Source: Vibrio cidicii (GTDB lineage Bacteria; Pseudomonadota; Gammaproteobacteria; Enterobacterales; Vibrionaceae). Taken from it: a stretch of DNA of 64,000 bases. A program made the position numbers and the translations under genes. The stretch is taken from NCBI RefSeq assembly GCF_009763805.1, contig NZ_CP046804.1, forward strand, positions 124,001-188,000, given 5' to 3'. Below, in pieces: positions 3,969 through 59,599 of the stretch (the first letter of the stretch is position 1; every line of letters starts with the position of its first letter). The notes under the pieces are model-generated. The model was not told the origin of the DNA. It was given only the letters and a program-made list of their open reading frames with translations, and made no database searches.

Positions 3969-4329
3969 TTAACGAATTTCTTCGAAAAAACTGTCACTGG
4001 CGGGAAAATCACCCGCGATATCGACCAATGTCCCTTCGTTGTTAAAGCTGACAATCAGATTCTTTTGTACTGATGCTTTGTGCCCTTCGGTGTGATGATA
4101 GATGTAGTACCAAGTATTTGGGTAACCGTTTTCAACCAACATGGGCGAAACCCATGACAAAGCGTACTTGAGTTTTGGTCATACCAAACTTGAGTTTGTC
4201 TACCGCTTGCTGCTCAACATAATTGCCTTGGTTAATGTCGATTCGATAAACCAATTTTTCCAATACTGAACACCCAGTCAGCATCGTCATTGCCAACGGT
4301 AGGGCAACCAACCACTTCTTCAATTGCAT
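3969..4329 (-). CDS. bamE: BamE outer-membrane assembly lipoprotein (frameshift in sequence)
   Basis: BamE is a small lipoprotein subunit of the BAM complex that inserts beta-barrel proteins into the outer membrane. The N-terminus has a signal peptide with lipobox LTGC, then the family motif KFGMTKTQVRFVMG. The next residues should be SPMLVENG, but these lie in another frame. Removing one T from the GTTTC (plus strand GAAAC at 4147-4151) joins the frames into 119 residues ending DIAGDFPASDSFFEEIR. The shift is one of fifteen identical ones in the window and is probably not real. The gene is divergent from nothing nearby and converges on ratB. Confidence 0.9.
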
Positions 4330-4460
4330 AGCTAAATTCTTAGTAACCTCAAAAAATACTGCGCCAGATAATAAACAAGCTAAGTGCAGATGTAAAAAGC
4401 TCTCTGTAATGTATCGGTCACTCTGACAACGAATTTTGAGATCAGTTGCAATTATGTGTC

Positions 4461-4487
4461 AAAAAGCCAAGTTAAGGGAACTTGGCT
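4461..4487 (-). terminator. recN terminator
   Basis: On the minus strand, a nine-base-pair stem (AGCCAAGTT with its complement) is followed by TTTTT, just past the recN stop. Confidence 0.8.
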
Positions 4488-4500
4488 CTAATAAAAGATT

Positions 4501-6166
4501 TTATGCAGCGATCAAGAGCTCTTTGGCGTTTGCGAGCGTCGACTCTGTGATTTGGCTACCGCCAAGTAAGCGTGCTAATTCGCATACTCGCTGCTCTTGA
4601 TCCAAGAGATTCATCTGCGTCTCTGTGGTGCCGTTTTTGCTGTGCTTGGCGACAAACATCTGTTGGTGGCCGCATCCAGCTACTTGTGGTAGATGGGTAA
4701 CACACAACACTTGAGTGGATTCTCCCAGTTTGCGCAGCATTTTACCGACGACCGCCGCAGTTGGGCCGCTGATACCGACATCGACTTCATCGAAAATCAA
4801 GCTTGGGGTGTCGACTTTTTGGGCGGTTATCACCTGAATTGCTAAAGAAATACGCGAAAGTTCCCCACCAGACGCCACTTTGGCGATTGGTTGCAAGGGT
4901 TGGCCTGGGTTGGTTGAGACCAAGAAACAGACGCTATCTAAACCCAATGGTGATGGATGTGTTCCTTCATTACTGACTTCAATACTAAACACCGCTTTTT
5001 CCATGCTCAGTTCATGCATGCTTTGCGTGATGAGTTTGTTTAACTCTTTGGCGTAGCGGCAGCGAGATTTATGCAGTTTCTCTGCGCATTCAAGAAAACG
5101 GTGATATTTTTCCTCGACATTGGCAGCCAGTTCATCCATCTTCTCATCGGAGCAATCTAATGCTTCGATCTGTGCCAGTAGTTCCTGATGATGTTGGTAC
5201 AGCTCTTCTGGCAAAACATGGTGCTTACGAGAGATCGACATCACTTTAGAAAAGCGCGCTTCTACATAGGCGAGTCGCGATGGATCAACATCAATGTTGT
5301 CTAGATAGCTGCGTAATTCGCTATTCGCCTCTTCTAGCTGAATGATGGCCTCTGCGACCATATCCGGCAGAGTCGCCAGTTTAGGATCCAACTCAGCCAA
5401 TTCAATCAGTGCATTGCTGGCACTTTGTAAAATGCCAAGCGCATTCACTTCCTCGCCTTCGTATATCAGTTCAATTGCCTGCTGGCAGGTACTAGCCAAC
5501 TCTCCGCTGTTAGAGAGACGTTTATGTTCTTGTTCAAGCTCAATAAACTCGTCTTCGCCGATAGCAAGTTCATTGAGCTCTTTGATTTGATATTCCAGCA
5601 GTTGTTTTTGAGCCTGATTCTGTAAGCTGTTTTCTTTTAGCTGTTTGAGATGATTATCCGCTTGTCGCCAGTTTTGATAGGCGACACGAGTATTTTTCAA
5701 CAGGTTTAAGTGACCTGCGTATTGGTCGAGCATCGCCATTTGGTGTTCACTCTTCATCAACTGATGATGAGCATGCTGGCCATGGATATTGATCAATAAC
5801 TGCCCTAAAGCTTTCAATTGAGAAAGGGGAACCGGGCTGCCGTTGATAAACGAGCGCGAAACGCCCTTCCTTAGTCACAATGCGGCGCAAAATGCACTCA
5901 CTGCCATCTAGTAGTTCGTTGTCTTCAAGCCAACGTGAGGCGTGAAGGTTGTTATCCAATAAAAATGCAGCGCTGACCTCGGTTTTTTCTTCGCCGCGTC
6001 GGACCATGCTCGCTTCGGCGCGGCCTCCTAGACATAAGCCCAATGCGTCGATCGCGATTGACTTACCAGCACCGGTTTCACCGGTGATAGTAGTCATTCC
6101 TTTAGATAGCTCGAGTTGTAAAGATTTAACAATGGCAAAATTATTCACACTTAGATGAGCCAGCAT
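4501..6166 (-). CDS. recN: DNA repair ATPase RecN (frameshift in sequence)
   Basis: RecN is an SMC-like ATPase that acts in recombinational repair of double-strand breaks. It has Walker A (GETGAGKS, about residue 29), a long central coiled coil, and the C-terminal signature and Walker B region (ASGGELSRISLAIQVI, then SLIFDEVDVGISG). The frame breaks after VTKEGR and resumes at LKALGQLLINIHGQ. Deleting one T in the GTTTC (plus-strand GAAAC at 5858-5862) restores the expected SRSFINGSPVPLSQ and a 554-residue protein, close to the E. coli length of 553. LexA-type boxes in the promoter show SOS control. Confidence 0.93.
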
Positions 6167-6176
6167 TTTAGTTTAC

Positions 6177-57695: not shown

Positions 57696-58783
57696 AACAG
57701 TTAATGCTCTATTGTCGCCCCGGCTTTGAGAAAGAGTGCGCCGGTGAGATTCAAGATAAAGCGACTCAGCTAGAGGTTTATGGCTTTCCACGCGTGTTTA
57801 AAAACGCAGGATACGTGCTGTTTGAGTGCTACCAAGCAGGCGATGCCGACAGGCTGGCTCGTGAGTTGGATTTCAACGCGCTGATCTTTGCAAGACAGAT
57901 GTTTGCTGTCGCAGCGGAGTTTACCGATCTCCCCGCAGAGGATCGCATTAGCCCGATTTTATCAGAACTTGCGGAAGTTGATAGCTTCCCCATGTGTGGT
58001 GATCTGCGTATTGAAACGCCTGATACCAATGAAGCGAAAGAGCTGCTGAAGTTTTGTCGTAAGTTCACGGTACCAATGCGTCAGGCCTTGCGCGGAAAAG
58101 GTTTCCTTATGGCAAAAGAGCATGCGAAAAAGCCTGTGCTGCACGTTTGCTTTGTGGCCTCAGGACACTGTTTTGTCGGGTACTCCTACTCGGATAACAA
58201 TTCCCGCTTCTTTATGGGCATCCCTCGTCTGAAGTTTCCCGCTGATGCGCCAAGTCGTTCAACCCTGAAATTGGAAGAGGCGTTTCACGTCTTTATTCCC
58301 CGCGAAGAGTGGGATACCCGCTTGGCTTCGGGAATGTGGGCGGTCGATCTCGGCGCGTGTCCGGGCGGCTGGACTTATCAGTTGGTCAAACGTTCGATGT
58401 TTGTTCACTGTGTGGACAACGGCATGATGGCGGAAAGCCTAACGGAAACTGGCCAGATCCGTCATCACATGGTCGATGGCTTTAAGTTTGAGCCCGATCG
58501 TAAAAACGTCACTTGGCTGGTATGCGACATGGTGGAAAAGCCAGCGCGTGTTGCTCACTTAATGGGGCAGTGGATCCTCAAAGGTTGGGCTAAAGAAGCG
58601 ATCTTTAATCTTAAATTGCCAATGAAAGGCCGCTACGACGAGGTATTGCAAGATATTGAAAACCTGAAAATGTTCCTGATTGAGAACAAGGTGAAATTCA
58701 GATTGCAAGCCAAGCACCTTTATCACGACCGTGAAGAGATCACCGTACACGTGCAGTGTCTATCTAACATCTCGCCGCATTAA
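57692..58783 (+). CDS. rlmM: 23S rRNA 2'-O-ribose C2498 methyltransferase RlmM
   Basis: RlmM (363 residues) methylates C2498 of 23S rRNA. A THUMP-like N-terminal part precedes a Rossmann methyltransferase domain with the SAM motif VDLGACPGGWTYQL. The start is GTG 57692, overlapping the DUF423 stop (GTGA). Confidence 0.94.
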   Translation: MKQLMLYCRPGFEKECAGEIQDKATQLEVYGFPRVFKNAGYVLFECYQAGDADRLARELDFNALIFARQMFAVAAEFTDLPAEDRISPILSELAEVDSFPMCGDLRIETPDTNEAKELLKFCRKFTVPMRQALRGKGFLMAKEHAKKPVLHVCFVASGHCFVGYSYSDNNSRFFMGIPRLKFPADAPSRSTLKLEEAFHVFIPREEWDTRLASGMWAVDLGACPGGWTYQLVKRSMFVHCVDNGMMAESLTETGQIRHHMVDGFKFEPDRKNVTWLVCDMVEKPARVAHLMGQWILKGWAKEAIFNLKLPMKGRYDEVLQDIENLKMFLIENKVKFRLQAKHLYHDREEITVHVQCLSNISPH

Positions 58784-58797
58784 TCGCAGCTAAAACA

Positions 58798-58821
58798 GAA
58801 ACGCTCCTCGGAGCGTTTCTT
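58798..58821 (+). terminator. rlmM terminator
   Basis: The stem GAAACGCTC/GAGCGTTTC is followed by TTC. It may also serve the convergent nuclease gene. Confidence 0.75.
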
Positions 58822-58845
58822 CATTCTCACGTTGTTAAAATCAAA

Positions 58846-59599
58846 TCATTGGTTCGATGTTGGCCACATTTCCCACAATTGAGATTCCATACTCTCTTCG
58901 CTGGCATCTGCGATTTCAGAGAAAAAATCGAGCTGAGTCTGTCTTTCGACTTCGTCTACGGTCGTGACAAAATTGACCAGTTCACTGCCGGATACATCAC
59001 GGTGCGGCACGATAAACGCTATCGCGTCGTTGAACGCGGGATCTAAGATCACTTTGTAGAAAGCGCTCGGGATTGCCACGCCGTTACCGATACTGCCGTC
59101 GCCACCTTGATAAATCGGCCCGGTGACGACGTAGAGTTCATGGTACTCATTGGCTAAGTCACGTACGTGTTCTTCCAACAGTCGCCAACCAACGCGGTTA
59201 AAGCCTGGTAGCTGAGGAGACATGTTGCTCATCAAAAAGCTTTGTTGCATCGAGGTTTGGCTAAAATCCATCGCTGCAGAGGGGGCAAGATGGCCACGAT
59301 CGTAACCAGAGCCGCTGTAGTCGGTTAAGGTTGAGCGCGCATACTCTGGTAGCTCGTTATCCATTTTAAAGCTGTTGCTGCGTTTGTACGAGGCATTCAC
59401 GCTCTCTGCCGTGATGTGGTAAGCCACCCAATCGGCATTCTTGGTGGTGTAGTTGTAGCCGACCGCGTAGCCTTCACGGCACAACACTTGATCGGGGTGA
59501 ACGGAAGGCATGCCTTTTTCCAAATGTTGACCACAGGTTTCAGCAAAAGCAGGCAGCGATAGAAACGACGGATAGGGAAAGTAAGATGATATTTTTCAT
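58846..59599 (-). CDS. Secreted DNA/RNA non-specific endonuclease (frameshift in sequence)
   Basis: The protein belongs to the beta-beta-alpha-metal NUC1/NucA family, with the catalytic motif DRGHLAPSAAMDF and QQSFLMSNMSPQ. The N-terminal frame encodes MKNIILLSLSVV, then breaks. Removing one A from GAAAC at 59562-59566 gives a complete signal peptide (VVLSLPAFA) followed by ETCGQHLEKG, total about 250 residues. It is likely exported to degrade extracellular nucleic acid. Confidence 0.9.

Follow-up and report, generated by a model that had tools for sequence, protein, structure and literature searches.

The words GAAC and GTTC are already linked to sulfur in DNA. In the nanopore study of Salmonella Cerro 87 (Wadley et al. 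2022, PMC9069010), phosphorothioate was reported to disturb the nanopore signal at these words. The Dnd enzymes of Cerro 87, in Salmonella and in E. coli, favor A or C at position -1, T or G at +1, C at -2 and G at +2, and 12% of the GAAC/GTTC words are modified in Salmonella Cerro 87 (PMC9521924). A related kind of assembly error was described in Listeria by Chiou et al. (2023, PMC10687267), where nanopore mismatches at GCAGC and GCTGG were linked to methyltransferases, in strains whose modification system the base-caller did not know. Here, we analyzed a 64,000-base window of Vibrio cidicii (positions 124001-188000 of contig C2 in a two-contig genome of 4,750,222 bases, G000) in which fifteen apparent frame breaks fall on GAAAC or GTTTC, and we report that the same genome encodes a complete DndBCDE and DptFGH set. 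The word and the kind of modification system are those of Cerro 87. That study compared the signal in raw reads with amplified DNA, whereas here the trace would be a residue of such a signal in a finished assembly; the main text of the Cerro 87 paper does not contain 'homopolymer', 'frameshift' or 'assembly', and uses 'insertion' once, in another sense. As in Listeria, the errors sit at one word, but the Vibrio case differs in consisting of one-base insertions at GAAC/GTTC in Dnd-positive vibrios, with no excess of substitutions. Nanopore errors due to modification have been described, and so have phosphorothioate signals; a literature search, in part limited to the best 15 or 20 matches and with most subscription journals outside its reach, found no paper that combines them as assembly frameshifts caused by phosphorothioate.

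A first-pass annotation of the window had listed fifteen homopolymer runs (4147, 5858, 10255, 16204, 23561, 28056, 32127, 34550, 37846, 44124, 47152, 48766, 49488, 57436 and 59562), and each of them does read GAAAC or GTTTC. We searched the sequence left and right of each run separately against relatives and compared the spacing. V. cidicii was one base longer than its relatives at 14 of the 15 runs, supporting the annotation's proposal of a one-base A/T insertion at those 14; at 59562 the flank search matched no relative. Support at 16204 came from a single relative, and at 23561 the difference was mostly -5, equal in frame change to +1. The named relatives by PurL were mostly Vibrio, with V. 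furnissii the nearest among the 80 matches listed (96% of the protein), and at the purL DNA the closest of 148 Vibrio genomes were G063 (98%) and then G114 (97%). Alignment to G114 placed an extra base within the word at 12 of the 15 sites and a gap about 6 bases off at one more, the other two lying outside the alignment. The annotation had also reported no other homopolymer and no deletion; this needs correction, as the window has eight further one-base gains and three losses against G114 in words other than GAAC/GTTC. The observation of word-specific frame breaks is confirmed and reaches beyond the window.

The affected genes are given below. Their identities are family-model (profile) matches, while bamE, pilV-like and nuclease are labels from the first-pass annotation. 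The split pieces of recN, mltF, ribE, thiL, dnaK and dxs match consecutive parts of one model, and single pieces fit the expected parts of pepD, frsA, purL and the 131-residue family NF008125.

4501..6166, minus strand: recN, two pieces overlapping at the word (NF008121 positions 117-553 and 1-102); relatives one base shorter
9835..11746, plus strand: dnaK, two pieces (NF001413 positions 1-141 and 141-625); relatives one base shorter
22442..24044, minus strand: mltF, two pieces (NF008112 positions 140-460 and 10-149); against relatives mostly a difference of -5, the same change of frame
24274..28234, plus strand: purL, broken near its end, the last piece matching NF003672 positions 1232-1289; relatives one base shorter
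31261..32362, minus strand: aspartoacylase-like gene, two pieces, one weakly matching TIGR02994 (77.8 bits, cut-off 402.7); relatives one base shorter
33231..34560, minus strand: pepD, broken near its start, the long piece matching NF011600 positions 65-485; 18 relatives one base shorter, the gap against G114 about 6 bases off
37654..38980, plus strand: frsA, broken near its start, the long piece matching NF003460 positions 51-413; relatives one base shorter
43765..44422, plus strand: ribE, two pieces (NF006767 positions 1-121 and 118-192); relatives one base shorter
46835..47816, plus strand: thiL, two pieces (NF004350 positions 1-110 and 103-323); relatives one base shorter
48405..50272, minus strand: dxs, three pieces with two breaks (TIGR00204 positions 2-253, 251-494 and 485-615); relatives one base shorter
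57400..57695, plus strand: small gene, called DUF423 in the first-pass annotation, broken, the piece 57450-57695 matching NF008125 positions 52-124; relatives one base shorter
58846..59660, minus strand: putative secreted nuclease gene (label of the first-pass annotation), two overlapping open frames; no relative matched

We then counted the word over 565,701 bases of direct alignment to G114 (95.2% identity). An extra A or T was present at 82 of the 3,224 conserved GAAC/GTTC words (2.5%), and none of the 3,224 had lost a base. Among the other AA/TT runs, 2 of 31,091 were longer by a base, on which ground we rejected a generic homopolymer error; among all other runs it was 46 of about 353,000, which gives an odds ratio of 200 for the word (p 1e-133). 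Errors concentrated in one word are the pattern expected of modification-mediated nanopore error. We looked for an excess of substitutions at GAAC/GTTC in the same alignment and found none (652 vs 643, balanced). Of 2,828 words in genes 71 were affected, and of 396 outside genes 11; these rates are about equal, which argues against real mutation. What we see is the gain of one base at a single word, without any trace of selection. The window, with 10 affected words by this measure, is close to the average, and since 14 sites were confirmed there by relatives, the alignment undercounts. Scaled from 82 per 565,701 bases, about 690 errors would be expected across the 4.75-Mb assembly. Other yardsticks were of less use: V. 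furnissii as reference gave a small, noisy alignment with one site only, little of G063 aligned, and the tRNA T-arm words, of which there were three in 464 kb, all unchanged, were too few.

As a measure that needs no relative, we trained on G000 a frame model whose states include insertion and deletion, and counted the word when it lay within 20 bases of a break. Over 856 kb of G000 the model called 122 breaks of the insertion type, and GAAAC/GTTTC, the top-ranked five-letter word, accompanied 88 of them (10.4 expected). It accompanied 3 of 60 deletion-type events; those that relatives allowed us to judge were mostly naturally overlapping genes. Among insertion-type breaks confirmed by relatives, the word was found at 27 of 32 in G000, at 11 of 13 in a second genome, G010, and at neither of the 2 in ten further genomes. 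G114 had the word at 3 of 25 insertion-type breaks in 800 kb, not above chance, G063 at 0 of 22 in 400 kb, and 80 named Vibrionaceae loci (1.78 Mb) at 1 of 33. In the search of the 148 genomes for DndD and DptH, neither G063 nor G114 had either protein over the cut-off. The same errors in strains lacking a modification system, which the first-pass annotation had named as speaking against its reading, were not encountered in the genomes searched.

With nothing but the word to go on, the first-pass annotation had predicted that the genome encodes a Dnd-type system, and it had proposed a genome-wide search for dndBCDE(FGH). A search of G000 for DndC located a Dnd island at 653.7-671.9 kb of C2, about 0.47 Mb from the window, which holds the complete set. 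DndBCDE are encoded together (C2 664616-669728), and the three genes of the DptFGH restriction module are adjacent; all scored over curated cut-offs.

DndB, minus strand: 466.1 bits (cut-off 328)
DndC, larger of two pieces, minus strand: 342.7 bits (cut-off 290.4)
DndD, minus strand: 496.8 bits (cut-off 245.85)
DndE, minus strand: 94.1 bits (cut-off 71.85)
DptF, plus strand: 513.2 bits (cut-off 50)
DptG, plus strand: 295.5 bits (cut-off 20)
DptH, plus strand: 1352.2 bits (cut-off 620.65)

The plus strand of the island carries dptF, dptG, dptH, an SBD-HNH nuclease gene, a gene for a 242-residue protein without a family match and one for a DGQHR protein; the minus strand carries dndE, dndD, dndC, dndB and a gene for a putative Dnd-associated methyltransferase (TIGR04096). 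The DndE is close to the solved structure 4LRV (161.9 bits), which we take to be DndE of E. coli B7A, a GAAC/GTTC strain. The footprint extends to the island: dndC is not readable in one frame, and its two pieces meet at a GTTTC word. We read this split as the same error because the two match adjoining stretches of the profile, positions 1-135 and 136 onwards. The methyltransferase gene is also split, beside a GAAAC. Among the 148 Vibrio genomes, DndD exceeded its cut-off in 22, including G000, and DptH in 19. Beside the island (L110:12379-15285) lies a gene for a 968-residue protein with PLD-like, helicase and S24 peptidase domains, which is weakly like the Dnd restriction enzyme family TIGR04095 (70.4 bits, cut-off 600).

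The annotation had seen no wider shared context around the affected words, and here the G114 alignment disagreed. With the 82 affected words oriented as GAAC and compared with unaffected words, A or C stood at -1 in 71 (47% of unaffected words) and T in none (36%); T or G stood at +1 in 61 (49%), and G at +2 in 47 (28%). In the frame-model set, which includes chance neighbors, T preceded the word in 5 of 88. The preference is shared with the Cerro 87 Dnd sites at three of the four published positions, -1, +1 and +2, and not at -2. At -2, G was raised instead (33 of 82, or 40%, vs 23%), and A was rare at +1 and +2. We had first noticed the bias in a smaller set, before encountering the published preference. 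The context dependence of the base-caller itself could add to the flank pattern, and the agreement with published sites, though strong, does not amount to proof.

The second genome, G010, belongs to another species (87% at the purL DNA); it is Dnd-positive as well, and its DndD is broken near the word. In 200 kb the frame model found the word at 27 of its 36 insertion-type breaks (3.3 expected), with T before the word in 2 of 27, compared to 39% of all its words; the +1 and +2 flanks were not significantly biased (p 0.24 and 0.69). G155, in which DndD had no match, had the word at one of two breaks. A search for DptH in 369 genomes of the class matched G000 only, so there was no replicate from another genus. 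The dndCDE region had matches in 204 of 5,426 complete E. coli genomes, a ready set for examining the footprint by platform; in the six of these 204 genomes whose islands were inspected, at the level of annotation only, none of dndB, dndC, dndD and dndE was flagged as broken. The contamination scores of G000 (3.23) and G010 (5) are high for two-contig assemblies, and our guess is that split genes may inflate them. The window of G000 also carries a tmRNA gene (2093-2459, minus strand; tag ANDENYALAA).

We propose, with a probability of roughly 0.87, that the frame breaks are base-calling errors at sulfur-marked GAAC/GTTC words and not mutations. The DndBCDE and DptFGH set is predicted to mark some of these words with sulfur; sulfur after the G would disturb the nanopore signal when native DNA is base-called from long reads, and at some modified sites the consensus would retain an extra A or T. 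Nanopore reads of native DNA, an active Dnd system and sulfur as the cause of the miscall are all our inference. The annotation's view of the breaks as systematic long-read errors at a modified word gains support from the Dnd set, the flanks at three of four positions and the second Dnd-positive species. Several results weigh against the sulfur proposal. The word was absent from 34 of the 122 insertion-type breaks in G000, the published C at -2 was not reproduced (21 of 82 vs 22%), and the affected share of 2.5% falls short of the 12% modified in Cerro 87 (PMC9521924). Phosphorothioate sites in E. coli B7A are described as having no additional consensus (PMC6459556), and the Vibrio enzyme may favor sites of its own. 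G010 was chosen for its split DndD and therefore serves as a replication, not a blind test; aligned to G114, from which it is too diverged (76% identity), it showed 1 changed word in 119, below what the frame model would lead one to expect. Seven other Dnd-positive Vibrio genomes had the word at 0 of 4 insertion-type breaks in 260 kb, which would fit assemblies that were corrected or differently sequenced.

The other explanations can be weighed on the same evidence. The most plausible of them, though still unlikely, is a different modification at GAAC/GTTC, for example by a methyltransferase foreign to the training of the base-caller; methyltransferase-linked nanopore errors are on record (PMC10687267), and the island itself carries the putative methyltransferase TIGR04096. 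However, the word is the known Dnd word, the Dnd set is complete, and the flanks accord with the preference published for phosphorothioate sites. A plain bias of platform or software at the word, without any modification, would suit the other Dnd-positive assemblies without the signature. We consider it slightly less probable again, as a platform bias is not expected to follow phosphorothioate flank rules and there was no excess of the word in G063, G114 or the 80 Vibrionaceae loci, though many of these were probably sequenced with short reads. Real insertions in the chromosome, for which the extra bases standing in the deposited assembly could speak, are highly improbable and we set them aside: coding and non-coding rates are about equal, the word changes one way only (82 gains vs 0 losses), essential genes are hit, and dnaK, dxs, ribE, purL and dndC would all be broken in one living cell. 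The annotation's judgment that random mutation is not credible agrees with this.

The proposal of sulfur-marked words also bears on the SBD-HNH endonuclease gene, which lies directly 3' of dptH (L110:1677-2555; G000:C2:661677-662555). The protein scored 376.6 bits against NF045808 (cut-off 180), its predicted fold is an SBD plus HNH, and the HNH residues and the HK and YP sulfur-contact residues are kept. It shares family, domain plan and kept residues with the EcoWI-type phosphorothioate-dependent SBD-HNH endonucleases (Lutz et al. 2020, PMC7461809). Fewer than 3.6% of the EcoWI-type genes lie near dnd clusters (PMC7461809), whereas all five over-cut-off SBD-HNH genes in the 148 Vibrio genomes stand beside dndD and dptH (the other loci are L212, L213, L215 and L216); one earlier neighbor case, Bsp48385I, lies beside dnd and dndFGH clusters (PMC7461809). 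Among plasmids, the protein matched 153 records, all below 60% identity. A short, stop-containing SBD-HNH remnant near the dndD of another genome (G006:C2:254781-254978) is perhaps a decayed copy. Next to Dnd genes, a nuclease of this kind poses a paradox of self-cutting. The error footprint argues against its easiest solution, a dead dnd cluster, so that the nuclease would need to be restrained or to recognize another word. We tentatively suggest, while regarding it as rather improbable, a three-part sulfur system in one island, in which DndBCDE would mark M-GAAC-K, DptFGH would police unmarked DNA, and the dptH-coupled SBD-HNH nuclease would be restrained from the GpsAAC marks of the host.

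If the frame breaks are errors at sulfur-marked words, a finished assembly, with no need of raw signal, would suffice to read the word of a backbone modification and even its flank preference. Broken frames at GAAC/GTTC would then serve as an inexpensive marker of active Dnd systems, and public Dnd-positive genomes may hold hundreds of false pseudogenes. The footprint further suggests an active Dnd system in an island that also encodes a predicted sulfur-dependent nuclease, and the known paradox of self-cutting would become directly testable in V. cidicii.

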